Below, piece after piece: positions 12,165-35,103 of a stretch of DNA of 35,103 bases. The stretch spans positions 1-35,103 of the IMG/VR virus record IMGVR_UViG_3300033144_003015, one strand, 5' to 3'. A program made the translations under genes and the position numbers. This DNA is from a virus. Every line of letters starts with the position of its first letter. The first letter of the stretch is position 1. The notes under the pieces were generated by a model, which saw nothing but the letters and a program-made list of their open reading frames with translations, had not been told where the DNA came from and did no database searches.

Positions 12165-12923
12165 ATGATACCAGTACAGGCAGTAGTTGACTTAATGAAA
12201 GCTGAGATAGACTCTGAAGGTTCTGAGAGGTATTTATTTGATCAAGACTTCAAGCCAGCCATCAATTCAGCAATTGATTGGTTGGTTTTTGTTTTCAATA
12301 GAGCTTTTGAAAACAACAAGTTTAGCGGAGAGCACTTGAACGATCTGATTAGAACTAGGCTTTGGGTAGCTAATAACTTTTCAAGGATTCAGTATGATCC
12401 AGCAGTTGTAGGTGATGGCTTTTGGAGTTATCTAGGAATACACCCTGAACCTGAAGTATATCCGGTGGGTAGCTTACCGCCAGCGATTCCAAATGACTAT
12501 ACCTCATTGTTTGTTCCTACAGTATCTTTTGTTAATTCAAAGTATAACGCTAACCTGATGACGTTAGAGAAGTGGAATGAGAATAGTGATAATGTTTTTG
12601 AAGCAGGGAACAACGTTCTTACTCAGTCAGGTTTAAAATCTTATGCTTATAAGACAACTGTAGACTACTCATCTACAAGTTATACTCAGGCGAAAGAAAT
12701 TGAGATAAGACCTGCTGTTCCTGGTCAGTTTGTTGCGGTAACTTATTTGAAGACACCTGATAATGTAAATTTAATTACAGACGACATTGAATTTCCTGAT
12801 GCAATAACAACATTAATTGTCAGAAAATCATTAAATTTCATAGCAACAAAACAGGGAGACAATACAACACTATTCGCAATAACGGAAAATGATGTAAATT
12901 CACTTCTTAAACTAATTAACTAA
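12165..12923 (+). CDS. Ring/adaptor protein candidate 1
   Basis: The protein has 252 aa. The N-terminal half is helical (KPAINSAIDWLVFVFNRAFENNKF, LNDLIRTRLWVANNF), the middle is beta-rich, and the C-terminus has IEFPDAITTLIVRKSLNFIATKQGD (about residues 209-233), a helix after a 'FP' turn that recurs in the next two genes. Such a build (helix bundle, beta sheet, C-terminal helix) fits head-tail adaptor proteins. Its stop overlaps the next start by one base (TAATG). In crAss-like phages several ring proteins lie between portal and muzzle, which is the model used here. Confidence 0.6.
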   Translation: MIPVQAVVDLMKAEIDSEGSERYLFDQDFKPAINSAIDWLVFVFNRAFENNKFSGEHLNDLIRTRLWVANNFSRIQYDPAVVGDGFWSYLGIHPEPEVYPVGSLPPAIPNDYTSLFVPTVSFVNSKYNANLMTLEKWNENSDNVFEAGNNVLTQSGLKSYAYKTTVDYSSTSYTQAKEIEIRPAVPGQFVAVTYLKTPDNVNLITDDIEFPDAITTLIVRKSLNFIATKQGDNTTLFAITENDVNSLLKLIN

Positions 12924-13669
12924 TGGTTTCTAATACTATACTAAGGTACGTTGTAGACGATATAGCTAAGGATCTGAAGCAGACCTTTAAAGAGAAGAGT
13001 ATTCAGAAGTCTCAGATTGCCTACTACGTAATGATTGTAGCTAATAGGTTAAAGAGTCAGCACATATCTAAGATTAGTTCAGGAGCCTACGTGCATGCTT
13101 TTACAGACCTTCCTGTTCACATCGAGCCAATAGGTAGTAACCCAAATAATATTGCGGGGAGAAAAAGAATAGTACTTCCAAATGCTATATACGACTTCCA
13201 TAAAGATGGAGGTATTGACTATTTATCTTACTGGGATAGAGAGGCTGTTTCTGTAGAGTGCATAGACACTCCTGAGTTCACTAGAAGAACATTCACTAGA
13301 ACAACTCCTAAAGAATCTGAGAGACTTTATTACGATAAGTATGAAAAGCCATCGGCTAGTAATCCTTATTACTACAGACAAGGTAAGTATTTATATTTGC
13401 TAGGACTAGAGTGTTCTGATGTAGCTACATTAGAGATAGGTATTTACTCAACATTTGATCCATTGACTAAAATAGACTTAGATGCGGAGTTCGAGTTCCC
13501 TGAAGAGTTGTTGTTGATATTAAAAAGACAAGTGTTAGATTTAGGTAGGTTCTCATTAAAAATGCCGCAGGACAGAGCTAATGATGGTATAGACAGTACT
13601 CTTTTAAGTGGAGCTAACGATCAGAAGCTGGTTAGTGTAAACGATCCTATTAATCAAACTCAACAGTAA
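12923..13669 (+). CDS. Ring/adaptor protein candidate 2
   Basis: The protein has 248 aa, coupled to the previous gene by TAATG. An N-terminal helix (YVVDDIAKDLKQTF, KSQIAYYVMIVANRLK) leads to a beta-rich centre (RKRIVLPNAIYDFHKDGGIDYLSYWDR) and to EFPEELLLILKRQVLDLGRFS near residues 192-212, matching the FP-helix feature of its neighbours. Position and fold pattern suggest another ring in the portal-tail neck. No enzyme motif, signal peptide or membrane segment is seen. Confidence 0.6.
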   Translation: MVSNTILRYVVDDIAKDLKQTFKEKSIQKSQIAYYVMIVANRLKSQHISKISSGAYVHAFTDLPVHIEPIGSNPNNIAGRKRIVLPNAIYDFHKDGGIDYLSYWDREAVSVECIDTPEFTRRTFTRTTPKESERLYYDKYEKPSASNPYYYRQGKYLYLLGLECSDVATLEIGIYSTFDPLTKIDLDAEFEFPEELLLILKRQVLDLGRFSLKMPQDRANDGIDSTLLSGANDQKLVSVNDPINQTQQ

Positions 13670-13675
13670 TAAGCC

Positions 13676-14488
13676 ATGGAATTTTCACCAAAAGAAATGT
13701 TGACCCCGAATGATATACTGTCAGAAGTTCTGATGTATACAGGTGAGCAGCGTTACGAAAATGTAACCAAAGGGTTTATTGTTTCTCAAATGAACAAGTG
13801 CTTAAAAGCTCTTTCTTATCATACGTTTTTCACGGAGACACACATGCACTTTGATTTAAACGACAAGAGGTTGATTGACATTCCTGCTGGAGTGTTTAAT
13901 ATTAAAGAGGTTTACTTGTTTAATGGAGATCAGTGTCATATAGGAGAGAACACGGCTAACGTTTATTGGAAGAGAAATTACTTTGCTCCAACAGGAAACG
14001 GAAGTGTCTCAAGAAACAAAGGTAATGACGGCAGTAATGGAAAAGATCCTTTTTACTCAAGCCAAAGCTCTTATTCGTCAATAGCGAGAGGTGGGTCAGG
14101 TATAAGTCAGCCAGGAACGACATTATCTAACACGACATTTTTTTACGGAGAATCTAACGGAACTTTAATGTTTAGCCCTAACTGTAGCACTTATTCTAAA
14201 GTAATGATTAAGTTCAGTGGGATATGGCAATTTGACGACAAGACACCGACCATACCAGCAGTCACTCAAGAAGTGCTTGTGGATTGGTGTACCGAAGCTG
14301 TCTTTAGAGCTAAAGTGCTGGTTAACCCTCAGTTATTCAGGACCATACATAAGGATGCTGAGATGAGATTAGGGTACAAGCCTGAGTCTTTTTATGGTAG
14401 CTGGTATAAAGCCAAGACTTTGTTGACTAAAATGGGGGGCAAGAAAAAAGAAGATTTAAAGGAGTATTTATCTCGATTAAACAGCTAG
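13676..14488 (+). CDS. Ring/adaptor protein candidate 3
   Basis: The protein has 270 aa. N-terminal helices (TPNDILSEVLMYTGEQ, KGFIVSQMNKCLKALSYHTFF) are followed by strands (DIPAGVFNIKEVYLFNG), a Gly/Ser/Asn-rich loop (about residues 102-150) and IPAVTQEVLVDWCTEAVFRA near 195-214, again the proline-helix element. The last part (MRLGYKPESFYGSWYKAKTLL) is helical. It ends in TAG three bases before the muzzle candidate. The role is inferred from position, the shared pattern and the crAss-like ring set. Confidence 0.6.
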   Translation: MEFSPKEMLTPNDILSEVLMYTGEQRYENVTKGFIVSQMNKCLKALSYHTFFTETHMHFDLNDKRLIDIPAGVFNIKEVYLFNGDQCHIGENTANVYWKRNYFAPTGNGSVSRNKGNDGSNGKDPFYSSQSSYSSIARGGSGISQPGTTLSNTTFFYGESNGTLMFSPNCSTYSKVMIKFSGIWQFDDKTPTIPAVTQEVLVDWCTEAVFRAKVLVNPQLFRTIHKDAEMRLGYKPESFYGSWYKAKTLLTKMGGKKKEDLKEYLSRLNS

Positions 14489-14491
14489 TAG

Positions 14492-17400
14492 ATGAACACA
14501 GAACACGGAGCCGAAGATGTTAGGTCATTTTCCAAAACAGCCAACTCTGACCGAGAGAAAGAATTTCTTGGAGCAAAAGACAATGGCGAGTTTATCAGTT
14601 CGAGAAATGCTAGAAACTATTCTAAAGACGGAAATACTGGTTCACTAGAAAAAATAAGGGGAGAAGGACTTCTTTTTCCTAACTCCAATCTATCTCCTAG
14701 CTATGTGTGCATAGGCACAGCAAACGTAAGAGGTCAAGCGGTAGAGTTCTGGGCCAGCCCTGTAAGCGGGGAGTTAGACTCAATAAGAGTGGAAGGTGCT
14801 GTAGTAGCATCTAATGATGCTCTGCTTTTTGACGTACAAAGAAATTTACAACTTGACACTAACGATAGGTGCGAAGGGGGGGAGGTATTTATCACTGACG
14901 ACTTCACTGTTCCAATGATATTTAACATTGAGGACATGGTTTCGAACATAGGTACTCAAAAGTACTTCACAGATTTCAATAGAAAGCTTTATGAGATTAA
15001 TCTTTCAGCTCCTTTAGATAAGCCAGTGTTCACCAAGCTAGTCACCGTAGGGGGAGGAGGAGGTCTTCCTATAGGGCAATATAGTTACGCATTGAGATAT
15101 GTAAGTGAAGCTGGAGATAGAACAAACTTAAGCCCTAGCACACCGTTAATACCTGTAGTACAGGATAATGGAGCTGCTAGTCCAGAATATCCGGGAACCA
15201 AAACTAGAGGTTCTGATGCTAACGTAGCTGTATCAACATCTTTCGGTATAGAGTTGAAGTTTAGAATAACAAATGAGCTTGAATACGATTCTATAGAGGT
15301 AATTAGATACGCTTGGAATGCAGGGACTCAATTAGGATTTACTCCTGATCCAAAAATAATTGGAAGGATTGATGTTTCTGGTATAAAGATAGGGACTGAC
15401 ACTTTTGTTGATCCAGTTAATTCAAACCTTGAAGAAACCATCCCTGAAGATGAATTAGATAATCAATTGATATTTATCGAAAGAGCTAAAGCTATTCGTT
15501 ATTTTGATAAGAGATTAGTCTTGATGAACTATTCAATAGCTGACAGGCAATTTAACCCTACGTTCACAGAAAGAAACGGAGAGGTCATGTTCCCCATAAT
15601 GGACGCTATGGAACATGAGGGTCATAATGATCCTCACAATCACACGTACAAGAAGTCTTATCCTAGCGGTGAGAGATTTGGATTCGCTATAAACGCTTAT
15701 GACGGAGTATCCGCAAAAGCATTTGCAGTACCTATAGATGGTTTTGGTAACTATCAATTCCCTAACAGGAGAGATGAGTTAGCTGCGGGATCCAATAGCG
15801 AAACTTACTCAACAGGAGCTGTTACAGCAGCAAACACTGCTGGGAACGTAACTAAAACATTTGAAGTATTTGATTTAGAGAACACTAAAGGGAAAGACAA
15901 TATATGTTCGTTTAAAGGTATTTTAGACGGGACTAACGCATTAGGAACGCCAGAAGGAACTAAGTCTTCAAGTAGCGTAACTAAATACTGCACAGAGGAC
16001 CCTGAGCGATCAGGAGCTATAAACACCGCAGGGAGAGTCGCAGCACCTTATGCTGTTTACCATCCTATAGGAGATTCGGATCCTTCTGTCTTTGATCACA
16101 ACTACAGAGTAAACGTTGCGGTTGATGATGGTAGCAATGAGTTAGATTACAATCCTGACATGTTTGGATTGAACTACTTCAGTAAAGGAATTGCTCTGAA
16201 CGGCATTGCTAAAAACACTATACCTGACTGGGTTAAAGCGTTTACTGTAGTTAGAACCGAGAGAGCGCAAAGAGTTGTTTGCCAGGGATTAGGAATGTAT
16301 TCTATGATTCCAGCAGACAGAGCGAACACAGCTACTACTATATATAACAAGTTAACAACTAAAAGCTCAAAGAAGTTTTGGTTTTATTCGCCTGACATTT
16401 CAGAAGGAGTTGTAAATCAGACTGTTGTAGAGGATATGAAGAATAATCCGCAGAACTATAAAATAGAATTTGTTTCTCCTTTAGGTTTTGCCTCAGAAGT
16501 TTATTCTTTCGACACAGACCCTCTTTACGGCCTAGATAGGCAAATAGACATGATGACCTACGCTAGGGTATTAAAAGATGCTGTAGGAGGTAAGGTTATT
16601 AACCCTGGAGAAGGAGTTATAGGAAATGCTGGATACACAGCTTACAACAAGTACAGAAACTCAAACGCTGTTAACGGGAACTTCTTTGGAACAGCAGAGG
16701 GAGGAAACAGAACAGCTCAACTTACTGATTTCTTTGAAATTGTAGAAGGTAGAGGTTCTTATTTTAGCATGGAGACTCAAGAGCAGATTTACAACCATAG
16801 CGGTACTGGAGGGAACAACGAGTTCGAGGACCAAGGAATGAAGGATTGGACAGAGCCTTTTTACATTATAAACATAATTCAAGAGGGAGCCAGTGTTGTA
16901 GATCAAAATATCGACAGCTACAAAGATACTGGAGCTTATGTCAAAATGGAAAGTGTTATAACTGAAGGATCTGCAACTGTTATTAATCCAAAGATTGAAT
17001 TAATAGACGAAAGGTGGGAAGATTGTATTCCTGCATTAGCTCCTGGAGATCCAACAGCGGGAGAAGAAAGATTTATATACGTGAGAGATGCTTCAGGTAA
17101 TGATTTGCCTTGGTACAATTACACGTATGAATCAGCAGCTCAACAAACAATTATAGTTAACGACATACTTACTAATGGATTCCACGTACTTCCTTCAACG
17201 ATCCAAGTTTACGGGGTGTACAATCATGATGTAGTAACCGATAGGGAAATTTATTTAGACTTAAACGTGCCTGGATTCAACACTATCCCAGTAGGAAGTG
17301 TAGTGCTTACTAAATATGACGAGAATGCTCCAATCAAAATATTCGGGGGAGATACAACTGTAGGGGATACAGTCTTCGCTCCAATAGACAAGAAGGTTAA

Positions 17401-19036
17401 CATGGAGAGGTATAATTTCTGGGACGCTGTTACTTTTGAGCCTCTTAGAGATTTGTTTTCGGCAGAAGATGTTAATAAAGGCTTTTCTTTTAACGTAGGG
17501 TTTCCTTATAGGGAATACCTTATGAATCCTAGACATTACGTAGCTAAAGATCCTAAAAACTTATTAGACAAGATACAGGCTGACATTGACTGTAAGCTGG
17601 GCTATCTAAGGCAGATGTGTGTAAGCTTCACAGTAGAGAGTAGGATAGCTACTCACTTTGCTTATAACGAGAACTACCCTAACGAGTTCTTTCCTAATAC
17701 TCATTATGTAATGCGTCCTAATAGGTACGATATTGCGCAATTTGCCGTTTCAACAGCAGACGGATATGAAGATAATAGTATACATCCTCAATACGAAGTT
17801 GATTACGGAGATGAATATTTAAACTGGGACTACGGAGGCATTAGGTTTATACAAAACTACAATATTGATTACTCACAGCAGAACATTGAAGAGTTTGTAA
17901 GTGAGCCTGATTTTGGATTTGAAGAGAGGACAGATTTTTGCACAGGGGTTGCTTGGAGTTTACCAAGATCAATCAATCAACAAGATTCTCCGGGGCTAAA
18001 ATCATTTCAAGCTCTAAATACCGTTCAGATAGAAGATGCTCAGGGAGAGATTAATTTAGCCTTTGACGCAACCACTGGAAAAGGAAGTAACATATATGCG
18101 ATCACCGACAGAGGAGTTTGCTTGTTGTTACACAATAAATCTATCCTTAGTGACGTATCAGGTACAGAGATAGGTCTGTTTAAAGGAAACAACTTCATTC
18201 AGCAAGAATATTGGTTAGATAGAAACATAGGAACTCCTGGTCATTTATGGCGGGGAGCAGCGGAAGGGTCGATAGGTATACGACAACTAACAGCTAGTGG
18301 AACAGAAGGGGAGATACAGAGAATAGAGGCTTTAGTGTTTGTTGACAATAGTTCAATATACAGGTTGGTGAACAACGGAGTTAAAGATATAGGTAGGGAT
18401 GGGTACTTTAGCGAGATAAATGAATTTGCTAAAGGAATACCATCAGGACAGCAAAACAGGCTTACAGCTCATTACAATGAGATTTACAACGAGTTTGTTA
18501 TTCAAGGAGAGTATCAAGACCCTAACAGCTTAGTACCGTTGCTTTTAGAAGATTCTTTTATGTATTCTTTTAATAATTCAGGATGGATTTCAAACTTTGA
18601 TTTTAGATTCGACAAATACTTACCTTCTAAAGACAGAGTTCTTGGAATGAAAGACGGAGAGTCGTATTTGTTAGATGAAGGATTTATTATAAATGGAGCT
18701 GCGATAATATTTGAAGCTGAAACAGGAAGCAGTGTTGCTCCATATAAAGAGAAAGAGTTTATTCGTATAAATGTTAACTCAAACAAAATTCCTACCAGGG
18801 TAGAATTTAAGAACGGAGACGACCAGTTATTGTGTGCTTTAGACCAGTCAATACAGGGTCCTCTGTATCTTAAGAAGTATGATGGCTTCGCGCAGTTCAT
18901 ACCTAGAAAAGATTTAGCAGTGTCTCCAGGACGAGAAAGAGTGCAAGACAGACTGCTAGTTTATAAAATTATTCATAATTTAGGAGAAGATTTCGTGCTG
19001 AAAGACGTAGTAACAACCTTTAAACTCATAAAATAA
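14492..19036 (+). CDS. Tail muzzle/nozzle protein (stabilisation-protein-like)
   Basis: The protein has 1514 aa and is almost wholly beta-structured by composition. Near residue 40 it has ARNYSKDGNTGSLEKIRG, and near 180 GLPIGQYSYALRYVSEAGDR followed by TNLSP, like Fn3-type strands in tail tube proteins. It follows the three ring candidates and precedes the internal proteins, the place of T7 tail tubular B or of the crAss-like muzzle. Its length fits the crAss-like muzzle far better than T7 gp12 (about 800 aa). It has an HNDPHNHTY stretch near residue 377 that might bind metal. No lysozyme motif was found. Spacing is 3 bases upstream and 1 base downstream. Confidence 0.7.
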   Translation: MNTEHGAEDVRSFSKTANSDREKEFLGAKDNGEFISSRNARNYSKDGNTGSLEKIRGEGLLFPNSNLSPSYVCIGTANVRGQAVEFWASPVSGELDSIRVEGAVVASNDALLFDVQRNLQLDTNDRCEGGEVFITDDFTVPMIFNIEDMVSNIGTQKYFTDFNRKLYEINLSAPLDKPVFTKLVTVGGGGGLPIGQYSYALRYVSEAGDRTNLSPSTPLIPVVQDNGAASPEYPGTKTRGSDANVAVSTSFGIELKFRITNELEYDSIEVIRYAWNAGTQLGFTPDPKIIGRIDVSGIKIGTDTFVDPVNSNLEETIPEDELDNQLIFIERAKAIRYFDKRLVLMNYSIADRQFNPTFTERNGEVMFPIMDAMEHEGHNDPHNHTYKKSYPSGERFGFAINAYDGVSAKAFAVPIDGFGNYQFPNRRDELAAGSNSETYSTGAVTAANTAGNVTKTFEVFDLENTKGKDNICSFKGILDGTNALGTPEGTKSSSSVTKYCTEDPERSGAINTAGRVAAPYAVYHPIGDSDPSVFDHNYRVNVAVDDGSNELDYNPDMFGLNYFSKGIALNGIAKNTIPDWVKAFTVVRTERAQRVVCQGLGMYSMIPADRANTATTIYNKLTTKSSKKFWFYSPDISEGVVNQTVVEDMKNNPQNYKIEFVSPLGFASEVYSFDTDPLYGLDRQIDMMTYARVLKDAVGGKVINPGEGVIGNAGYTAYNKYRNSNAVNGNFFGTAEGGNRTAQLTDFFEIVEGRGSYFSMETQEQIYNHSGTGGNNEFEDQGMKDWTEPFYIINIIQEGASVVDQNIDSYKDTGAYVKMESVITEGSATVINPKIELIDERWEDCIPALAPGDPTAGEERFIYVRDASGNDLPWYNYTYESAAQQTIIVNDILTNGFHVLPSTIQVYGVYNHDVVTDREIYLDLNVPGFNTIPVGSVVLTKYDENAPIKIFGGDTTVGDTVFAPIDKKVNMERYNFWDAVTFEPLRDLFSAEDVNKGFSFNVGFPYREYLMNPRHYVAKDPKNLLDKIQADIDCKLGYLRQMCVSFTVESRIATHFAYNENYPNEFFPNTHYVMRPNRYDIAQFAVSTADGYEDNSIHPQYEVDYGDEYLNWDYGGIRFIQNYNIDYSQQNIEEFVSEPDFGFEERTDFCTGVAWSLPRSINQQDSPGLKSFQALNTVQIEDAQGEINLAFDATTGKGSNIYAITDRGVCLLLHNKSILSDVSGTEIGLFKGNNFIQQEYWLDRNIGTPGHLWRGAAEGSIGIRQLTASGTEGEIQRIEALVFVDNSSIYRLVNNGVKDIGRDGYFSEINEFAKGIPSGQQNRLTAHYNEIYNEFVIQGEYQDPNSLVPLLLEDSFMYSFNNSGWISNFDFRFDKYLPSKDRVLGMKDGESYLLDEGFIINGAAIIFEAETGSSVAPYKEKEFIRINVNSNKIPTRVEFKNGDDQLLCALDQSIQGPLYLKKYDGFAQFIPRKDLAVSPGRERVQDRLLVYKIIHNLGEDFVLKDVVTTFKLIK

Positions 19037-19037
19037 C

Positions 19038-19763
19038 ATGGACCCATTAACGATAGCGGCTATAGGAAAAGGAGCAGGGGCAGTATTTGGAGCAATTCAA
19101 TCAGCCAGAGGTAAAATGAAGCAAAATCAAGCAGATCAAATGGGTCCTGGATTAGTAGATCCTAATCGAGCAAGAGATTTAGAGAGAGCAAGACGAAGAC
19201 AAGCTCAACTAGAATCTGGAACAGACACAACTACTCAACAAGCATTAAAAGAAGGAAGACAATCAACTAGAGCAACTCAAAGAGATTTAGCTAAGTCAAC
19301 AGGAGGGAACGTAGGAGGTACTGTAAGCGCATTACTTCAATCTCAAAGACTAGGAGGTAACATAGCTAATAACGCTTTTGCAGGAGCTGCACAAAGAGGT
19401 ATGGCTATGAGTAATATGGCTAACACTATTGCGCAACAAATATCTCAGAGAAAACTAGATATTCAACAATACAGAAGTGTTCAACGAAGAGCGGAAGGAG
19501 CTAGATTAGCTAAAGAAGGTTTTGCTAATTTAACAGGAGGATTGGTTAGTGGCTTATTGAGTGGTGGAGGATCTGGCAATCAAGGACTTCCAATAGCGCA
19601 AACTCAAGCTCCAAGTGTGAGTTCTCCAGTAACTACAGCGTTAGGAGCTGGACAGAACCTACAAGGTCAATTAGGAGGAAGCCCTGCTGATAGATTAAGA
19701 GCTGAGGGTAATTTAGATTTCGGAGCAATTAACAATGCTCAGATGGGAGGAGTGGACGCTTAA
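19038..19763 (+). CDS. Internal virion protein, T7 gp14-like in position and make-up
   Basis: The protein has 241 aa. It starts with a Gly/Ala-rich hydrophobic stretch (PLTIAAIGKGAGAVFGAIQ, residues 3-21), then basic Gln/Arg-rich helices (NRARDLERARRRQAQLE), a Gly/Asn-rich part (GGNVGGTVSALLQSQRLGGNIANN), another weakly hydrophobic segment (ANLTGGLVSGLLSGG) and a flexible C-terminus. Such small amphipathic proteins head the ejection-protein cluster of podoviruses and insert in the host outer membrane in T7 (gp14). The following two genes are larger, as in T7 gp15 and gp16. Similarity is in pattern and order, not proven homology. Confidence 0.6.
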   Translation: MDPLTIAAIGKGAGAVFGAIQSARGKMKQNQADQMGPGLVDPNRARDLERARRRQAQLESGTDTTTQQALKEGRQSTRATQRDLAKSTGGNVGGTVSALLQSQRLGGNIANNAFAGAAQRGMAMSNMANTIAQQISQRKLDIQQYRSVQRRAEGARLAKEGFANLTGGLVSGLLSGGGSGNQGLPIAQTQAPSVSSPVTTALGAGQNLQGQLGGSPADRLRAEGNLDFGAINNAQMGGVDA

Positions 19764-19774
19764 TAAAACGTGTT

Positions 19775-21664: not shown

Positions 21665-21672
21665 AGGAAGTT

Positions 21673-27600: not shown

Positions 27601-29301
27601 GATGAATTACATAACACTCCATGGTCAGAAGTAAAAGGGCCAGGAAAAAAAGTACTGAAAGCAATCGAGACACCTGTATCAATGATGGTAAGATTACTTA
27701 TAGCTGGTGACGCTTTAGCTGATGCTGCGGTAAGGCCATTCTTCGCTCTAGTAGGAGCTTACAACAAGGTACTTATAGATACCGATGGAGGAACTTCTGT
27801 CTCAGAAAAAGAGTTTTGGCATCAAGTTGACGAGTATAAAGCTGCTGATGATGCAGCAAAAGAAGCTGCTGAAGCTCAAGCTGAAGTAGAGTTGCAGAAA
27901 CTAAAAGATAAAGGAGTTCCAACTAAGGACTTTAATCTTAAGCAAAGAGCTAGGGAGATACAGTGGGAAATGATGGATGCTGATGTGAGATTATTCGCGG
28001 AGAGAAAAGCAGGGGAGATAAGATTAGGTAACGATCCTACAGGAAGCTTAGGAGTTCTTTATAATTCAATAAAGAAGTTCAGTAAAAAATTCCCTCCATT
28101 GACTTACTTACTTCCTTTTGTAAGGATCCCGACTAATGCACTCCAGATGGCTACAGACTACACTCCAGTAGGGGCATTGAGGTCTATATTCGGAACAGGG
28201 ACATTCGTAGCTAAGAGCGATCCTCAGAACAAAACAATAATAGAGAAGGCTAGAGTAGGTAAAGACTTCTTAAAACCTTTTAGAAAGTCACAACAGGACA
28301 GAAAGGTGAAGGGAGGGTTATTGATGGATGACAGATTAGATTACTTATTAAAATCATCAATAGGAATGTTGGCAGGTAGCACAATCATGTATTTAGCTCT
28401 TGACGGATTAAATAAAGATGATGACGATGAAGATAACAGGTTTCAAATAACAGCAAAAGGAAAAGGTTATTACGGAGACAACATACCTTTAGAAAGAGGT
28501 AAGAGTAGGACTGGAGTAAGGCCTTATCACTTCAGAATGAAGGTTCCTTTCACTAACACTTGGTCCCCATGGATCGACTACAGAGATTCTCCACTTATCA
28601 TGTGGATGACAGCAGCAGGTTCAATATCTGATAGAATACTCTACGAGGAGAAAGAATTAATTCCTCTAGATGATGCAGGAAATAAACTGAGTACTGTGTT
28701 TGATCCTGACATTGGAGGTTCAGCAGCGTTAGAAGCTTTGGCTTCATTTAAAGAGCAAGCATACATGCAGGCTGTGTCTGAACTGATAGCTGCGGGAGAT
28801 AAGCTGGATACGGGAGCCAGCCAGTTTGTAGACAAAACGACAGGTTTAGTTACTAGATCAGCTAAGGGAACATGGTATCCATCTTTTTACTCTAAAGCAT
28901 ACCAGTACTACCAGACTGTAAAACAGTCAGACAAGAGCTTTGTAACTAAGGCTAGAGATAGTATATGGGAAAACATGTATCAAACAATGGCTAAAGACGT
29001 ATTCTTTTTAGACTTCATGCTTGATGATTACATAAATAACGCAGGAGAGAAGGTTCAAAGAAATACTAGTGCTATACCTATAGTTCCATCATCAATGATA
29101 AAAGGAGTTCAGGATTATGTAGGACAGTATGGAGCTGATCAGGTTCAACTTTCAGACGCTCTTCTTGAGGGAAGACCTAAAATATCTTTTAGCGATCTGT
29201 TTCCAGATGCTATGAGAGGTAAAACAATGGTCTATTCTAGTGACGAGAAAAAAGAGATTAGTTTAGACGATAAGATGAAGTTTGCAAAAGCCTTTATATA
29301 G
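21673..29301 (+). CDS. Giant internal/polyvalent virion protein (2542 aa)
   Basis: Order of parts: flexible acidic N-terminus with a repeated LVVPEGE (residues 8-14 and 36-42); charged helices to about 590; glycine-rich hydrophobic segments (about 596-625, 762-776); a Glu/Thr/Val-rich acidic linker (about 820-940) with internal repeats; a helical domain (LPGLTYSETKKGANDI, about 1000); two related helical modules (GAVEVLAKSIEGASTVAQAV, about 1126; EMIGDLAASYVRSGITNVKM, about 1513); a hydrophobic stretch (VRSVTGLAMVTPFVFFM, about 1885); and a C-terminal part with LLPFVRIPTNALQM (about 2145) and a likely membrane span SIGMLAGSTIMYLALDGL (about 2230). The C-terminal P-F-V-R-x-P-T-N signature recalls large phage polyvalent proteins. 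By order it matches T7 gp16, but no transglycosylase motif was found. The stop is TAG. Confidence 0.75.
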   Translation: MTDVNESLVVPEGEDDFSLSVEPTIATETVASPEGLVVPEGEEAEVPKKVSPLETGESLVEPSLPSGAPQGGTGLDSPLSVDNQEPFNVLGRPTEEPLIFRSVSEEKAGLEEGLVKAKDKQNEDPLAIIEGSEAHRDLEAVLAPRMTTEEEIESTLTQLQADQNVSPQQLEAAEIMALQKKDLLLERFRDSVNEEKKKVFKSQLRKVKEEAGDSVGGFIDREKRALADNDPFIIDEVKEEYDFNRKIDHLTSKYVVNLALTRNVIPHNVYVKIAAMNRSKNKDEELANYKKDLLDQISKDNEVLGNRISAEEIKSFSQKDIGELAAISGSLAEISEQVSSVEAEKQEFLAKKHKGIDSDIAKLKKKIIDDESLNEEDKQWIREKVAKKEKLKDSFYEKDGSKAGKAFVGDIKEGSHSFNLYREILEDIPEDLSSKEKFDLFYITLNRVSKNKLKKAGMIDEDGNYDNSSETALRDLLGIEDVLGIDFRGSMIGGLTPMKKEALETKGKVDDLTNLFLNNTAYSSGNYWDEFYASFLGGLYPDSAKAAGVISDTQRAGETVATLSDFGITEDENINKEHLQAFSDLVAFPEETPKLQLVGSTLGGSFAMMGKLMAGGAALRALKVGKLGASLTRAEKALSKTRAGKIVANSIKQGVNAEFSGELFNDKEELEFKQFFAGQMAADVVEGMLKGAGGKFASTLIKNLGVNKKAALDFTGKIFSRATGEFTEESMQQIVGAYNKSDSFKGTVEELRRQFPDMDSVTEFAILTGLMGATFGLKTSYSDVRQRLKDGGYDTSKADEIMEEIGKETKKAAEIINEGKKESKAEAEPVTEAAEEAVTEEVTPDAEITEEAVTEEVTAPEVIIDETGETEYTNKEGEFFSEEEILNITPEEVSEMVIKNPSEAVQQKVSPKAEIAEETVETVPEAEIETKTDTDESVQPSETKTEDKTKTVQAEEVAGQTAVKPKSGETTSQDKAWAINEIKDGVLDSVGNASLDERIQLPGLTYSETKKGANDIRQGKLSSLPAKKVFAAMAQARVEGEYKFDQGSGKNIISKTVPIDSSRRVQTEEEFLSEEDLDAFYGEKAVEQDRARQVEEARISLADKVRKLKIKKPGSLSVSLGPDAIWDGAVEVLAKSIEGASTVAQAVEKAIDYIKATDWYKKQLPDKRAQVVKEVRASLNDVVSTQEAESEIESKEKVAEEKRKEIAELEKARKAKEKVKDQKEPIEEKKKPEAEEFEAPDGETVKIDRTKITQTDPKRKKKLRQHYNKIKSDPSVSQSLKDVLDGDPRTYYDTQTNVWQVGTALELVNAFARDGGLDSLLEDVENNFAEYGAVGIMILQSAALHYESQGRESDAEAAMAAKIRLMTIAGQVLQSAKITLDPGQLEELSKISSTVAINIRSEIKEYRDSVLSKKVEGGKTKKEEILQGITSLEDAINVIAEGIANNDPAVQKAIEQFSGKSKVTKSVKPVQTPEYKETLRKEREKRKQIRADAKKNKGKYFYSSFGVTPEGIEMIGDLAASYVRSGITNVKMLADKIRQVLKEDFDVEISDADIEKSFKKKNISSIAKTQESQAASEALAKKVVNEVKSKGSKTVKAVDALVRTLFSKAKESLPEKQKDDTTQSYREKLVEAMSQQEFSREVWDSAKRSVSQMLDAQESNGEITGAEKAQVLKDLDLFFEDKVGSPFSKSLLDKSIKEQIKSDGDRINEIIKEHWTNKKERGRSLAEKIVADTNLTAEQATELSKTIEDRFSSLIQDHAERALAKSLGVDKLTGAVKLKHGATLKNIVEAINLGALTPNAYLDAFGQRFGFGTITKGEVAKINGFIYNLTMLPKGSSAREKEMIRLRSFLENIKMRNASTYKKVTALLKEFFIRHILGSLSPVVRSVTGLAMVTPFVFFMEAVKNPKLFLKEVKNIAKAPYNVVKKQATNTRLTNAMFEGIKKDGWNVLKDAYKEGFVNYDIAQEGFNEGATTGFLDELHNTPWSEVKGPGKKVLKAIETPVSMMVRLLIAGDALADAAVRPFFALVGAYNKVLIDTDGGTSVSEKEFWHQVDEYKAADDAAKEAAEAQAEVELQKLKDKGVPTKDFNLKQRAREIQWEMMDADVRLFAERKAGEIRLGNDPTGSLGVLYNSIKKFSKKFPPLTYLLPFVRIPTNALQMATDYTPVGALRSIFGTGTFVAKSDPQNKTIIEKARVGKDFLKPFRKSQQDRKVKGGLLMDDRLDYLLKSSIGMLAGSTIMYLALDGLNKDDDDEDNRFQITAKGKGYYGDNIPLERGKSRTGVRPYHFRMKVPFTNTWSPWIDYRDSPLIMWMTAAGSISDRILYEEKELIPLDDAGNKLSTVFDPDIGGSAALEALASFKEQAYMQAVSELIAAGDKLDTGASQFVDKTTGLVTRSAKGTWYPSFYSKAYQYYQTVKQSDKSFVTKARDSIWENMYQTMAKDVFFLDFMLDDYINNAGEKVQRNTSAIPIVPSSMIKGVQDYVGQYGADQVQLSDALLEGRPKISFSDLFPDAMRGKTMVYSSDEKKEISLDDKMKFAKAFI
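21692..21800 (+). repeat. 25-base direct repeat coding LVVPEGE
   Basis: A 25-base block is identical at 21692-21716 and 21776-21800, in the same reading frame and 84 bases apart. It begins GCTTAGTTGTTCCTGAAGG and encodes a repeated LVVPEGE near the N-terminus of the giant protein. Confidence 0.85.
24181..24245 (+). repeat. 20-base direct repeat in the acidic linker
   Basis: GCTGTTACTGAAGAGGTTAC occurs at 24181-24200 and 24226-24245, a 45-base period that keeps the frame. It encodes AVTEEVT twice in the acidic linker of the giant protein and probably arose by slippage or duplication. Confidence 0.9.
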
Positions 29302-29504: not shown

Positions 29505-30047
29505 ATGGCATTAGGACTAAGAATAAACGCAGAGTTCAGTAAAACAGGGGTTATTGTTTATGATACAACTTGTAAGTACGATTCTTGCGCAAACAAGACT
29601 GGTTACGGAGCTCCTAACGAAACAGCAGCGGCAGCCATTTCAGCAACAGTAGAAATTACAATACCAGGGGTAACAACCCCAGTAGTAGTTACCGTATCCC
29701 CATACCTTCCAAATGAGAACGGTGTAGGTTTCGAGATCGACTATGTTGACTTAAATATCAGTGAAATTCCTCCAGGGGAATGGCATTTCAAGTATACAGT
29801 AAACTACGCAGGTGGCGTATCGTATGTTAAAGAGTGTTGGTTTTTAAACACTTGCCCTATCGATTGTTGCTTAGCGGAAAGAGTAAAGAAGATAAATGTA
29901 ACATGTGGAGGAGAATGCGATGCGGAGACGTTCAGGTTAATTAGCTTATTGAAAGGAGCTATTCAAAACCATTGTAGTTGTGATTACGGAAAGGCTCACA
30001 ATATAGCTACCTATGTCTATGAGAAATGTAAGTGTGGTTGTTGTTAA
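29505..30047 (+). CDS. Cysteine-rich tail protein (180 aa)
   Basis: Residues 1-115 look like an all-beta, Ig-like domain (SATVEITIPGVTTPVVVTV, EIPPGEWHFKYTVNYAGG). The last 60 residues hold most of the 14 cysteines: CPIDCC, CGGEC, HCSC and the C-terminal KCKCGCC, with a helix (AETFRLISLLKGAIQNH) between them. It has no signal peptide, so the cysteines are made in the cytoplasm and may bind metal or form disulfides later in the released virion. It opens the fibre module, and the following three genes also carry cysteine clusters. It was not recognised beyond the general type of small phage tail proteins ending in CGCC. Confidence 0.75.
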   Translation: MALGLRINAEFSKTGVIVYDTTCKYDSCANKTGYGAPNETAAAAISATVEITIPGVTTPVVVTVSPYLPNENGVGFEIDYVDLNISEIPPGEWHFKYTVNYAGGVSYVKECWFLNTCPIDCCLAERVKKINVTCGGECDAETFRLISLLKGAIQNHCSCDYGKAHNIATYVYEKCKCGCC

Positions 30048-30064
30048 ATTAAAAAATTATTAAA

Positions 30065-31153
30065 ATGGGATGTTCAGATTGTAGTAGTGGTTCAAGTTGT
30101 GGTGGTTCATGCGGATCCTCATCGTCATGCGGTGGAGATTGTGGACAGCCAAAAGAATATGTAACAAAGACAGGTATTCAAGGTCCTCCAGGACCAGCAG
30201 GACCGTCTAACGATAGATTTAGTTATTATGCTACATCTTCTAACACTATTGATATAGACGCTTTATATATAGCTCCAGCTCCAATCGCTATAGATGTCGA
30301 GATTAACAAAGCGTTTGTTGCTGGTGACTTTGTTAGAATAAGTGATATTCCGGGAGTAAGCTTAGCTAACGCTAACTACATCGAAGGAACCGTAACTTCT
30401 TATGATGAAACTACAGGAGCTTTAGTAGTTGATGGAGCTACTAACTTAGCTCAAGTTGAAGGCGGCTTGGCTTATAGAAAAATGGTAGGTACGGGGTCTA
30501 TTAGTTCTTGGTATATTTCTTTGATAGACGCTAAAAACATTAACGTATCTAACGAGAGTGTTTTAGTTTACTCTGCGAGGAGAGATTTCTCTAATGGAGG
30601 TATAACATATCTTGACATTACTAGTGATAACATCACGAACCCTGCTGAATTAGCGATAAACAAATTGGTTTTTGATTCTGCCGATGCAGACGTGACGGTT
30701 CTTGTAAATAAAAAGAACTCTCATTTTCGCGTTACAGACGAGACCACAGGACTATACGATGGTAGGCAGGTGAAAGCGATTGAGATACAGCTTCACGTAC
30801 CTCAACAAGACGGGTCTAACAACTGGATAACTCCAATTAACGTTAGCGGCACAGACATATATGAGACAGGATCAATTGCGGTTATAAAGCACGGTAACTT
30901 CCCTGATTACCTAATCAACCCTATGTCTACAGGAGAGATATATACAATGGCGAGTGTTCCTGTAGGTAGAGACACTGGAACTATATCAATAAAAGGTACT
31001 CATAGGAACTACGAGTTACAGCCTGTAGGAGCCTCTAATGGATATTTCTTTAAGTATATAAATAACACTGATTTGGCTGTAGTAGGAGGTAATGTGCCTC
31101 TAGCTCCAGGAGGAACTGGAGAAGGCTTTTACTCAATTAAAGTATATATATAA
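30065..31153 (+). CDS. Cys-rich, collagen-containing tail fibre protein
   Basis: The protein has 362 aa. Residues 1-27 are Cys/Ser/Gly-rich with cysteines at 3, 6, 12, 16, 22 and 26. A short collagen-like segment (GIQGPPGPAGP) follows near 38-48. Residues about 52-155 form a domain (SYYATSSNTIDI, AGDFVRISDI, YIEGTVTSYDETTGALVV, ISSWYISL) that is shared with the next gene and is common in phage fibres. The rest is beta-rich with no enzyme motif. Its stop overlaps the next start (TAATG). It probably trimerises through the collagen part and belongs to the receptor-binding apparatus. Confidence 0.75.
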   Translation: MGCSDCSSGSSCGGSCGSSSSCGGDCGQPKEYVTKTGIQGPPGPAGPSNDRFSYYATSSNTIDIDALYIAPAPIAIDVEINKAFVAGDFVRISDIPGVSLANANYIEGTVTSYDETTGALVVDGATNLAQVEGGLAYRKMVGTGSISSWYISLIDAKNINVSNESVLVYSARRDFSNGGITYLDITSDNITNPAELAINKLVFDSADADVTVLVNKKNSHFRVTDETTGLYDGRQVKAIEIQLHVPQQDGSNNWITPINVSGTDIYETGSIAVIKHGNFPDYLINPMSTGEIYTMASVPVGRDTGTISIKGTHRNYELQPVGASNGYFFKYINNTDLAVVGGNVPLAPGGTGEGFYSIKVYI

Positions 31154-32448
31154 TGAGTTGTTCAGGATCATGTGATTGCGGAGCTTGTTCCCCAGGTATT
31201 CAAGGGGCTAAAGGTATTCAAGGACCTCAAGGAGAACAAGGACCTCCAGGACCTCCAGGGTCAACAGGTGGTCAAGGTGTGCCAGGTAACGATGGGGGTG
31301 TAGGTAATAATGGTGTTGATGGTCGTGGTTATGACGCATCAAGCTCAACCTCTATAGATGTATTAGACACTTTAGCAACCTCAGCTTCACTTGCAATAAC
31401 CACAGAGAGAGCGTACACTCCTGGGGCAAGAGTAAGGGTCTCTGATTCATCTAACCCAGCAAACAACTACTTTGAAGGCGTAGTCAATACTCACAACTCT
31501 GTAACAGGAGATATGATAATAGATTCTATCGATGTAAAGGTTGGTTCTGGAACTTTTAGCTCATGGAATGTAAATTTAACAGGAGAGATAGGGTCGGCAG
31601 GAGCAACAGGACCTCAAGGCGTACAAGGTCCAGCAGGAGTTGCGGGACCTCAAGGACCTATAGGTAACACAGGTCCTGCGGGAACAAACGGTACTGACAT
31701 ATATGATAGTGGTTGGAAAGCTATAAATAACTATACTATAGGTCAAGGTTTTGGTTTAGCACCAATAGGCTGGGCTAACCCTCAGATAAGAGTTATAGGT
31801 AGAACTGTCTTTATAGATGGTATATTCATGATCCCTCTAGGAGAGAACGGAACCCCTACTAACTTACGTACTGATTACTTAGTGTACCCTAGCACAAACA
31901 AGACCGATGTAGCAACATACACAGGTACTGATGGAGGGTTTGCGTTGGCAGCTAGTGGTTCTCTTACATCGCAAACAGCTATGTTACCTTTAGAACTAAG
32001 ACCTTCAGTTGCGAATAGAGTATCAAGATCTCAACACTCTAGTAGGTCAGTACAAGACACAGCGGGTACTCACAGTGTAACATTGGACGCTATGATTAAA
32101 AGTGTTGACATACTTACTGACGGTAAGGTGTTTATCACTACACACAAGGATGTTGATGATTCTTCAGGAACGCCAATACCTAACTCAGCGATACATTCAA
32201 TTGTAACTAAAGCAACATCTGGAGAGTTCGTGCCTGATTATAGCGCATACAAAACTAGTTTTACTGGTACTGGTCCAGGAACGGACAATAGGGTTTCTAC
32301 AGCTCACGCTACAGCGACTTACCCAGCAACAATAGACACTGATGAAGAAACAGATTTAGGAGGGTTTTTCTTTGCTTTTAGGACAAGCTACCCTGTTTCT
32401 CAAGCTTACTCAGAAGCTCAAATAACAAACGCATTTGATTCAATATAG
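31153..32448 (+). CDS. Collagen-like tail fibre protein with N-terminal Cys cluster
   Basis: The protein has 431 aa. It begins MSCSGSCDCGACSPG with cysteines at 3, 7, 9 and 12, then about 14 Gly-X-Y triplets (residues 15-58). A domain (DASSSTSIDVL, PGARVRVSD, YFEGVVNTHNSVTGDMII, GTFSSWNVNL) is paralogous to that in the previous gene. A second collagen run of about 11 triplets follows near 144-178. The C-terminal 250 residues are beta-rich (WKAINNYTIGQGFGLA, VIGRTVFIDGIFMIP) and probably form the exposed trimeric tip. Collagen triplets in phage fibres drive trimer formation. It ends in TAG. Confidence 0.8.
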   Translation: MSCSGSCDCGACSPGIQGAKGIQGPQGEQGPPGPPGSTGGQGVPGNDGGVGNNGVDGRGYDASSSTSIDVLDTLATSASLAITTERAYTPGARVRVSDSSNPANNYFEGVVNTHNSVTGDMIIDSIDVKVGSGTFSSWNVNLTGEIGSAGATGPQGVQGPAGVAGPQGPIGNTGPAGTNGTDIYDSGWKAINNYTIGQGFGLAPIGWANPQIRVIGRTVFIDGIFMIPLGENGTPTNLRTDYLVYPSTNKTDVATYTGTDGGFALAASGSLTSQTAMLPLELRPSVANRVSRSQHSSRSVQDTAGTHSVTLDAMIKSVDILTDGKVFITTHKDVDDSSGTPIPNSAIHSIVTKATSGEFVPDYSAYKTSFTGTGPGTDNRVSTAHATATYPATIDTDEETDLGGFFFAFRTSYPVSQAYSEAQITNAFDSI

Positions 32449-32454
32449 TAACGT

Positions 32455-34194
32455 ATGAGTTGTGACAGTAAAATAGATTCTTTTCATAGTAAATCAAAAG
32501 GTTTACTTGCTGACCTGTCTTATGGGTTGTATAAAGAGGTTAACTTCGGTAATACGAAGAGGGCTAATGAGTACGCAAGAGACATTCAAAACATAGAAAG
32601 TATCTCTTGGTTGTTAGATAAGCATGAGAAATCTACTTGTGGGTGCGCTCCCGTTAGCTGTTTATGCACAGGAGCTAGTTCTAATCCTTCTTTTGGATCA
32701 GAGAGCTTCGTATCAAACACTTTAGATGTTAACGGACCTCCAACTACTAATGTAGAGCTTTGGAAGGGGATACTGTACAACAACAAGACAAAGCAACTCA
32801 TATCTGTAAGCTCAAGAGCTTTAGATGTTTACGACCCTGCTTGCGAGATCATCAATGGAACAAGGGCTGCTGTATGTAGGTTAAACGCTACAACTCACAA
32901 GTCTCTTAGGTTCTGGAGTTGGGAAGGTAATGTTCCTACTTTATTATTTGATACTGAAGAGATCTTCGATGGTATTCAAGAGTTTGAGTTGGTTAGCTTT
33001 TATTACAGCGAATTACATAACTCATATTTTTTAAAGACAAACAGTGACGCAGGATCTGTCACCGGACCTATAGTGATTAAGGTGTCCGCTGACTTTTCAA
33101 GTGTAGTGGTGTATAATGCTGGAGGTGTAAACGTAATTACAGCGTCAGACCCAAGCCCTGTGCTAATGGAGGTTGTAGACAGTTTGAATTTCATCTTTAT
33201 AAAAAGAGACGCTAACAACCTTGATGTTCACAGTTTAGTTGACATGTCCTTAATTAAGACGATCACTACTACAGGATTTCCTTATCAAAAAATGACGTGG
33301 AGTGAGTGTGAATGTAATTTGATTTTAACAGGAGGAGGAGATAGTGCTAACGGAGTTATTCATGTGGTTGATCATACAGCATTAACAGTTACTAATAAAC
33401 TTGACACAGCCCTCTACAAGAACAATACAAGCATTGTGACTAGCGGAGGAAAACTACTAGTTCTTTCTAGGGATGAGAATACATTTGAAATGGTATTCCA
33501 GAAATGGAATACGTGTGACGATATGACATTGCTAGAGTCGGTAAATACAGGAGTTTTAATGGGAGCTGGAACTCCAGGCTTTCAAGCCATACATTCTTTT
33601 ATAGAAGACGCTGACGGAAACATACTAGTAACTTATTTAACCGCTGTAGGAAGTGTAGCTCTATCTGTTTTTGACAAAGACTTTAACTTAAAGTTCACGA
33701 AAGACTTAGGCTTTGGATCGTTAGGAGCTAACATACCAAACTCTTGGACCAACACAAACATAAATTTTGCCGGAACTAATCTAATCATACATGATATTAA
33801 TCAGAATGGTGTCGGAGGGGTTACTTCATACTACCTAGACTACAGCGTGGACTCTTTAGAGATAGTCAACCCTACATGTGTAGTGCTTACAGACGAAGAG
33901 ATTTGTTCTTTAGTGAATAAGTTAGACGGTATAAAGAAGGTTAAAAAATACGGTTCAATCACCCTCAATAGCAGTTTAACTTTAGCGAGTAATTGTGATA
34001 GACAGTTTGTCTTTGATCAAAATACAGCATCTGCTGTGTGGACTATAAACCATAACTTAGGTTGTTTCCCTCAGTTGTTTGTTTTAGATACTTTAGGAAA
34101 CAGAATATACGGTTCTGAAGCTTACCCTGACAATAATACGGTAATAATAACATTCTCTGTTCCTATAGCGGGAACAGCTTATTTAACTTATTAA
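32455..34194 (+). CDS. Large tail fibre/adhesin with Cys motif and propeller-like body
   Basis: The protein has 579 aa. C3 and a helical N-terminus (SKGLLADLSYGLYKEV, RANEYARDIQNIESISWLLDK) lead to a cysteine group (62, 64, 69 and 71: CGCAPVSCLC). Residues about 95-480 contain repeated short beta units with Asp/Gly turns (LFDTEEIFDGIQEFELVSFYY, VIHVVDHTALTVTNKL, VALSVFDKDFNLKF) that look like blades of a beta-propeller. The last 65 residues form a common fibre end domain: SAVWTINHNLGCFP, VLDTLGNRIYG and TAYLTY. It probably binds the host surface. The propeller is inferred from the pattern only. Confidence 0.75.
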   Translation: MSCDSKIDSFHSKSKGLLADLSYGLYKEVNFGNTKRANEYARDIQNIESISWLLDKHEKSTCGCAPVSCLCTGASSNPSFGSESFVSNTLDVNGPPTTNVELWKGILYNNKTKQLISVSSRALDVYDPACEIINGTRAAVCRLNATTHKSLRFWSWEGNVPTLLFDTEEIFDGIQEFELVSFYYSELHNSYFLKTNSDAGSVTGPIVIKVSADFSSVVVYNAGGVNVITASDPSPVLMEVVDSLNFIFIKRDANNLDVHSLVDMSLIKTITTTGFPYQKMTWSECECNLILTGGGDSANGVIHVVDHTALTVTNKLDTALYKNNTSIVTSGGKLLVLSRDENTFEMVFQKWNTCDDMTLLESVNTGVLMGAGTPGFQAIHSFIEDADGNILVTYLTAVGSVALSVFDKDFNLKFTKDLGFGSLGANIPNSWTNTNINFAGTNLIIHDINQNGVGGVTSYYLDYSVDSLEIVNPTCVVLTDEEICSLVNKLDGIKKVKKYGSITLNSSLTLASNCDRQFVFDQNTASAVWTINHNLGCFPQLFVLDTLGNRIYGSEAYPDNNTVIITFSVPIAGTAYLTY

Positions 34195-34195
34195 G

Positions 34196-34540
34196 ATGCT
34201 TGACGGTATACAAATAAATAACGATGTAGACTTTAATAGCAATGAGGCTTTAAACATTAAGGCTCATATACGTAGTGACGACCCTATAGGTACTGATTTA
34301 GTCGCTGGTAAGTTTTGGTACAATACTACTAGTAATTCTTTGAATTATTACAATGGTACTAATGTTATAATACTGAACAATAGTTTCGCTACATACACTC
34401 ATAATCAAGGAGTTGCAGCTTCTGTTTGGAATATAGAACACAACCTTAACAGATATGTTCAGATAACGATAGTAGACAGTGGAGGTAATGTGGTGGAAGG
34501 CGCAGAGTCTTATGATGATTTAGTGGTAAAGCTTATTTAA
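34196..34540 (+). CDS. Short tail fibre protein with truncated end domain
   Basis: The protein has 114 aa. It has a fibre linker domain (VDFNSNEALNIKAHI, GKFWYNTTSNSLNYYNG), then the end domain seen in the previous gene (THNQGVAASVWNIEHNL, VDSGGNVVEGAESYDD), which stops early as LVVKLI. The expected end of this domain, FSGKAYLT and a stop, is present out of frame at 34519-34545, so a deletion with frame change has shortened the protein. It begins one base after the previous stop. Whether the short form still folds is unclear. Confidence 0.7.
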   Translation: MLDGIQINNDVDFNSNEALNIKAHIRSDDPIGTDLVAGKFWYNTTSNSLNYYNGTNVIILNNSFATYTHNQGVAASVWNIEHNLNRYVQITIVDSGGNVVEGAESYDDLVVKLI

Positions 34541-34545
34541 CTTAA
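34519..34545 (+). pseudogene. Out-of-frame remnant of fibre end domain
   Basis: Read from 34519, the codons give FSGKAYLT and then TAA, the usual finish of the VWxIxHNL end domain. The 15 bases AGCTTATTTAACTTA (34530-34544) are identical to 34176-34190, which encode the same end (AYLTY) in the previous gene. This frame has stops just upstream, so it is a relic and not a separate gene. Confidence 0.6.
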
Positions 34546-34569
34546 TAATAACAATTAAAACTAACAGTA

Positions 34570-35103
34570 ATGGCAAGGAAAATTCTAATCTCGTATGACT
34601 TCTCAGGAAATGAAGTTCAAAATGCATTAGTTCACGTATTAGCATCTCCACCTACAGCTTTAGGAGCAGGACAAGTATACTTTGACACAACAATAGGTAA
34701 GCTGGGTCAGTACGATGGATCTTCGTGGCATTACATATATGCTATTAACGATCTCGGAACAGCAACAACCGACCTGTGGTCCGCTGATAAGATTGCCGCT
34801 GCAATTGCCGCTGCGGTAACAGGTGGTATGGATTATATCGGAGGATATGACGCTGCTACAAACACTCCTGACTTAGATACTTCTCCTTCAGGAATAAGCA
34901 GCGGAGATACTTACACTGTAACTGCTGATGGAACATTCTTTACGGAGCCAGTAACGACAGGAGACTTTCTTATAGCTGAGCAAGACAATCCTACCACTTT
35001 AGCTCATTGGACAGTACTAGAGCGAAACTTAAACCCTGCAACCGAATCATCTCAAGGGACTACTCAAATAGCAACTCAAGCTGAGGTGACTACAGGCACT
35101 GAT
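34570..35103 (+). CDS. Tail fibre protein, partial at the window edge
   Basis: The frame is open from ATG 34570 to the end of the window (178 codons). It starts MARKILISYDFSGNEVQNAL and has GQVYFDTTIGKLGQYDGSSW (about residues 35-54), paralogous to the linker domain of the preceding small gene. Then comes GGYDAATNTPDLDT through DFLIAEQDNPTTLAHWTVL (about 92-153), a domain widespread in phage fibres, and TESSQGTTQIATQAEVTTGTD, a typical start of fibre repeats. More repeats and the receptor-binding tip probably lie beyond the window. A 29-base A/T-rich gap precedes it. Confidence 0.8.
   Translation, partial: MARKILISYDFSGNEVQNALVHVLASPPTALGAGQVYFDTTIGKLGQYDGSSWHYIYAINDLGTATTDLWSADKIAAAIAAAVTGGMDYIGGYDAATNTPDLDTSPSGISSGDTYTVTADGTFFTEPVTTGDFLIAEQDNPTTLAHWTVLERNLNPATESSQGTTQIATQAEVTTGTD

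Follow-up and report, generated by a model that had tools for sequence, protein, structure and literature searches.

Four consecutive genes of a 35,103-base virus record (IMG/VR record IMGVR_UViG_3300033144_003015, the whole of which was analysed and is called the window here) encode proteins with dense Cys clusters, and it is reasonably likely that together they specify a fibre-docking collar in which the fibres are welded to a hub by disulfides. The genes lie on the plus strand, between positions 29505 and 34194. In the mechanism that we propose, the collar would belong to a short (podovirus-type), crAss-like tail. The first protein, of 180 residues, would be hub protein A, with a beta-sandwich and a Cys-rich three-helix domain, and its partner in the hubs that surround the tail barrel would be similar to hub protein B, a role that probably falls to the helical part of the fourth, 579-residue protein. 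The 362- and 431-residue proteins encoded between them would be trimeric fibres, plugged into the hub by Cys tips at their N-termini. Disulfides might form within the hub (C122-C175 is predicted), between hub subunits, through the terminal CxC motif and nearby Cys residues, and between fibre tips and hub, the latter fixing the fibres covalently.

Cysteine clusters and the base protein

The clustering of Cys residues in the four proteins is exact and far beyond chance. An earlier note on this DNA had described 14 Cys and a KCKCGCC end in the 180-residue protein, and all are present in the translation of 29505-30047 (residues 23, 28, 111, 117, 121, 122, 134, 138, 157, 159, 175, 177, 179 and 180). 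The positions that it gave for the Cys-rich tips of the next two proteins are equally exact: Cys is found at residues 3, 6, 12, 16, 22 and 26 only in the 362-residue protein, and at residues 3, 7, 9 and 12 only in the 431-residue protein. As for the fourth protein, C3 and the CGCAPVSCLC motif (62, 64, 69 and 71) are where the note saw them, but the Cys residues are not limited to these clusters, nine more being found along its length. The other 16 proteins of the window have 38 Cys in 9184 residues (0.41%), compared with 7.8% in the 180-residue protein. At this background rate, the Cys content of the 180-residue protein has a probability of 6e-14; the values are 3e-9 for the first 30 residues of the 362-residue protein, 4e-7 for the first 15 of the 431-residue protein and 2e-5 for the first 75 of the 579-residue protein.

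Single-sequence searches with the 180-residue protein, hereafter the base, gave no match in Pfam, PHROGs, the PDB, 50,697 phage records or an IMG/VR peptide-pattern scan, and no relatives were detectable among annotated phages. They were reached solely by scanning with a degenerate DNA pattern and then with a profile. A pattern drawn from the base motif YDTTCKYDSCANKTGYGAPN retrieved a close relative, a looser pattern added seven loci, and the profile built from these loci retrieved 72 IMG/VR loci, which with the window make 43 non-redundant loci at 85% identity. The contigs of these relatives are fragments, their genes come from a simple gene caller and the loci are not independent observations. 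A second profile, built from the window lineage, yielded no relative beyond the close one already known, and a scan of 84,980 species genomes of bacteria and archaea gave no base relatives with the patterns used. In IMGVR 3300037837_000037, the only close relative, the four genes have the same order, with 46-60% identity. This relative keeps ten of the 14 clustered Cys residues of the base, four of six in the first fibre, all four in the second, and C3, C62, C64, C69, C71 and C475 in the fourth protein.

Fold, profile and the synteny of the relatives make it very likely that the base (29505..30047, plus strand) is a tail hub protein A (THA)-like protein. Alignment and modelling divide it into an N-terminal FN3/Ig-like beta domain (residues 1-116, 29505..29852), with the family motif YDxT..Y....N.TGYGAPN, and a C-terminal three-helix Cys domain (residues 117-180, 29853..30044), which has 11 Cys and ends in CKCGCC. 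The AlphaFold (AF2) model of the protein has a predicted local distance difference test (pLDDT) score of 89.3 and a predicted template modelling (pTM) score of 0.84. In a plain Foldseek search of the PDB, it matched nothing below E 1e-3, with gp38 of PhicrAss001 outside the top 50. A second look over Foldseek's top 1000 with VIA-align ranked chains 7qol_W and 7qoj_G first (Z 9.6, 150-153 of the 180 residues, root-mean-square deviation 4.0-4.2), aligned to base residues 5-176 and hence over both domains, while nearly all other listed matches are limited to the FN3-like half. Chain 7qoj_G is that gp38, the tail hub protein A. Among the predicted viral structures of BFVD, the Foldseek matches with E<1e-3 are an unnamed protein and two from Cellulophaga phages, the 'structural proteins' of phi17:2 and phi14:2. 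The phi14:2 protein, g087, annotated as detected by virion mass spectrometry, also matches the base family profile (E 5.6e-7).

Sequence comparison points to the same protein. Among 18 PhicrAss001 protein families aligned to the base with hhalign, gp38 stands out with E 9e-5 to 1e-4, the next best value being 0.13. This match, with a probability of 58-59%, covers the C-terminal domain only and spans a CDC motif and the terminal CxC. In the gp38 family, the Cys before helix 2 and those of the terminal CxC (C163, C211 and C213) are invariant; their counterparts in the base family are C134, present in 38 of 43 members, and the near-invariant C177 and C179. All base relatives have the N-terminal beta domain with N.TGWGAPN, and in nearly all of them the C-terminal domain is helical and Cys-rich, with CxC or a similar motif at its end. 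In 34 of the 43 loci, homologues of the MCP, gp33 and ring protein genes precede the base gene, as they do that of gp38, an arrangement that is usual for hub protein A genes but does not define them. In the window and its closest relative, the hub genes are located behind the cargo genes and not in the position of gp38, which in the case of the window speaks against the proposed collar. The earlier note had cast the 180-residue protein as a docking base, and this proposal is supported by fold, sequence signature and gene position in most relatives, all those of gp38; docking is the expected role because the homologous PhicrAss001 hub holds fibre N-termini (PMC10172136). In one locus (L009:6952-7869), a 306-residue variant of the base with an internal insert is encoded downstream of a 2313-residue Cys-free open frame.

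The base might instead be a head-fibre or decoration protein whose fibres sit on the capsid, as PhicrAss001 does have head fibres, gp21 and gp29. A homologue of the auxiliary capsid protein AUX (gp36) was detected upstream of the base gene in two loci only (L031 and L043), and there the two genes adjoin directly. However, the gene of gp38 also follows that of AUX, both fold and profile match this tail hub protein, and the base has no profile match to gp21 (HFT). We thus set the head-fibre reading aside as highly improbable.

Cysteine-tipped fibres and a candidate partner

The 362-residue fibre 1 (30065..31153, plus strand) is 47% identical to its counterpart in the close relative and comes after the base in both phages. 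Its Cys/Ser/Gly tip, residues 1-30 (30065..30154), is the proposed hub plug, given its Cys positions and enrichment. Fibre 2, of 431 residues (31153..32448, plus strand), is collagen-like (Pfam Collagen PF01391, E 3e-11) and matches PHROG tail fibre families; Cys positions and enrichment define a tip of residues 1-12 (31153..31188), followed by G-X-Y repeats. Counting as Cys-tipped any N-terminus with at least two Cys in its first 20 residues, we found that the clusters do occur together, as a set of genes, in related phages, which the earlier note had proposed to check. The tips are concentrated just after the base: 45 of the 113 genes at positions +1 to +3 are Cys-tipped, compared with 0 of 188 upstream and five of 103 further downstream (p=4e-23). 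Short, mostly collagen-like fibres starting with MC..C are found downstream of the hub gene in 26 of the 39 phages with scorable neighbours.

Setting THB-like genes aside leaves 33 fibre tips, 30 of which lead straight into four or more G-X-X repeats. Cys residues beside collagen helices usually serve as inter-chain knots (collagen cystine knots), and the tip Cys may likewise tie the chains of each trimer together to register the collagen helix, the hub disulfides being a separate matter. Nevertheless, such a register device needs no Cys in the hub, whereas Cys tips go with Cys-rich bases: no Cys-tipped fibre occurs in the seven phages whose base is Cys-poor (five Cys or fewer in the last 75 residues), compared with 26 of the 32 with a Cys-rich base (Fisher 1e-4). 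In addition, some Cys-tipped fibres have no detected repeats (L044 and L083). Knots in place of docking bonds appear unlikely to us, and the two kinds of bonds could coexist.

The covariation between base and tip Cys residues is suggestive only, and several observations weigh against reading it as a sign of locking of the tips into the hub. The association rests on about four independent changes on the tree, and a tree-aware sign test gave no contrary case, with pairs too few for significance. Furthermore, residues 1-30 of PhicrAss001 gp22 are free of Cys, and therefore a fibre can dock without tip Cys. The earlier note regarded Cys-less fibres in phages that keep the base as contrary to its proposal, and such cases do occur, as six of the 32 loci with Cys-rich bases have no fibre bearing at least two tip Cys, and the N-termini of the phi14:2 tailspikes are, like that of gp22, Cys-free. 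Nevertheless, these cases mostly involve different fibres, and a Cys-poor base is never accompanied by a Cys-tipped fibre.

The fourth protein (579 residues, 32455..34194, plus strand), 49% identical to its counterpart in the close relative, is tentatively described as a THB-like helical part with a large beta-rich insert. Most relatives have small helical Cys proteins downstream of the base, with the plan helix-helix-NCLTEEE-helix-CxC, and in several of them (L021, L022, L030, L033 and L047) a beta-rich insert precedes the third helix. The 579-residue protein appears to follow this plan: its helical N-terminal part (residues 1-71, 32455..32667), with C3 and the CGCAPVSCLC motif, is followed by the insert and then by the CVVLTDEEICSLVNKLD helix (residues 475-491, 33877..33927), which resembles the third helix of THB-like proteins in a family comparison. 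Whether the fourth gene codes for hub protein B with a beta insert appears evenly balanced to us. The helical family matches gp39 weakly (E 0.009-0.016), which argues against this assignment, as does the match of the 579-residue protein to the helical family, with E 0.11 unspliced and 0.001 when the insert was removed by eye, a manipulation that biases the test. The AF2 model of the protein has low confidence (pLDDT 42) and was not used for a fold search. The profile of this helical family aligns with the base too, in its helical domain (E 9e-4), a relationship that would suit a pseudo-threefold hub receiving a trimeric fibre. In two loci, L033 and L035, a hub B-like gene directly follows the base gene and there is no Cys-tipped fibre; the former has R2 and R1 homologues at +6 and +8, in the order of PhicrAss001.

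The 579-residue protein ends with a module of about 60 residues (TINHNLG.FP..., residues 515-579, 33997..34191) that matches PHROG 30556 and others. It recurs in the next gene (34196-34540) and is common to unrelated phages, those of Dinoroseobacter, Rhodobacter and Streptococcus, as a mobile tail module. The two genes at 34196-35103 share an N-terminal stretch (phrog_8309); their products are Cys-free and fibre-like, outside the Cys set.

Disulfides or metal

The earlier note had offered disulfides or a shared metal as the link between the clusters, and of these two the former are favoured, by covariation and by analogy with the homologous hub. C122 and C175 are both present in 27 of the 43 bases and both missing in the other 16, and neither occurs singly. 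On the tree, there are eight changes of each, all shared by the two, and only three of these pairs lie on well-supported branches. Because perfectly coupled gain and loss is expected of a covalent pair, a C122-C175 disulfide is predicted. Together with the disulfide-stabilised hub known for the homologue, this covariation makes disulfides in the hub likely, and for tip-to-hub disulfides we lean towards their presence. Weighing against both is that the bonds are deduced here, none having been directly seen.

CxC and CxxC motifs could bind metal in a reducing cytoplasm, and such motifs are present at the ends of these proteins and beside helices. The Cys clusters might then hold a metal common to tips and base, either zinc or an iron-sulfur cluster of the kind found in gpL, the tail-tip protein of lambda. 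However, the spacing of the tip Cys residues varies freely between lineages (C2-C4-C5, C2-C5, C3-C6, C3-C7-C9-C12 and others), which fits poorly with the fixed coordination geometry of a metal site. The strict gain and loss of C122 and C175 as a pair, and the disulfide bonds of the homologous gp38 hub in cryo-EM (PMC10172136), also speak for disulfides, and a shared metal appears improbable.

The note further proposed that the disulfides close only after lysis, as a maturation switch. We consider this timing rather doubtful. A phage-encoded oxidant was considered and dropped, as a search for thioredoxin-family genes gave two matches in 16 related records, which may be fragments, and none in the window record. 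The three proteins encoded just before the hub genes (19038-29301; 241, 629 and 2542 residues), likely cargo or ejection proteins from their position, have no Cys in 3412 residues; at the rate seen in the remaining non-cluster proteins, P is about 2e-10. The copies in the close relative are also Cys-free, and in PhicrAss001 so are gp46 and residues 1-1293 of gp47. It is possible that thiols are selected against in proteins ejected from an oxidised virion. One might speculate, tentatively, that covalent docking is widespread in crAss-like phages, with multi-Cys tips locking into a disulfide-bonded A/B hub through bonds that close once the particle has left the reducing cell, and with the ejected proteins kept Cys-free against cross-linking.

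The phage and known docking systems

The window phage is probably a distant relative of the order Crassvirales whose hub genes have moved behind the cargo genes. This kinship is proposed because hhalign matches its portal (E 4e-6) and TerL (E 1.6e-4), both over parts, and more weakly its ring and muzzle proteins, to crassvirus families; a crassvirus MCP homologue was not found in the window by hhalign. The weak matches include those at 12165..14488 (plus strand), where the first, second and third proteins may correspond to gp34 (E 3e-3), gp40 (E 8e-4) and gp40 (E 3e-3), respectively. A 1514-residue candidate muzzle protein (14492..19036, plus strand) is proposed from its position and a weak match to gp44 (E 4e-3). 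Four tRNA genes (Pro, His, Leu and Gln) are found in a row at 347-695.

The proposed collar provides a function and a structural template for genes that are mostly unnamed in PHROGs and Pfam and that recur in crAss-like phages of diverse kinds. The fibres are predicted to be covalently attached and exchangeable, each phage having zero to two genes for Cys-tipped fibres downstream of a single conserved hub. If this is true, fibre swapping would be a matter of sharing a common Cys tip, and redox state would be part of virion maturation.

In PhicrAss001, rings R1 and R2 are encircled by a collar of twelve A2B hubs, each made of two gp38 and one gp39. As seen by cryo-EM, each hub houses residues 1-26 of gp22, the trimeric fibre, and disulfides stabilise the barrel and the hubs, linking the hubs to one another and to the ring (PMC10172136). 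A disulfide-stabilised hub that holds fibre N-termini is thus already known from that work; what is new here is that the fibre tips themselves are Cys-rich, and a search of the open-access literature gave no earlier account of fibres with Cys tips on this hub. The system described here resembles the hub of PhicrAss001 (gp38, gp39 and gp22; PDB 7qoj/7qol) in the hub A fold, over both domains, in the Cys-rich C-terminal helical domain ending in CxC, in gene position in most relatives and in the small helical partner gene nearby. The collar is disulfide-stabilised there and predicted to be so here. The relation to gp38 is detectable by profile and fold only. Unlike the Cys-free N-terminus of gp22, those of the fibres described here have four to six Cys at the start and continue into G-X-Y repeats. 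Two further differences from PhicrAss001 are the large insert in the putative hub B part and the location of the hub genes of the window behind the cargo genes.

The structural proteins of Cellulophaga phages phi14:2 (g087, S0A0T4) and phi17:2 (R9ZWW9) are relatives of the base by fold and profile. In phi14:2, g087 lies downstream of the putative structural gene g088; its product has fewer Cys in the C-terminal domain than the base, and the neighbouring tailspikes have no Cys tips.

As for the covalent attachment itself, the fibres are probably locked as in Agrobacterium phage Milano, whose receptor-binding proteins are disulfide-linked through Cys15 of the tailspike TSP gp124 and Cys38 of STF. 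The bonds of Cys15 in the three gp124 chains go to BW1, BW3 or the sheath (PMC10811340), such that the chains of one trimer reach different partners. Both systems have Cys in an N-terminal fibre arm, and the covalent bond to the tail was seen by structure in Milano and is inferred here. Milano differs in having a contractile tail, unrelated proteins and one Cys per arm instead of a cluster.

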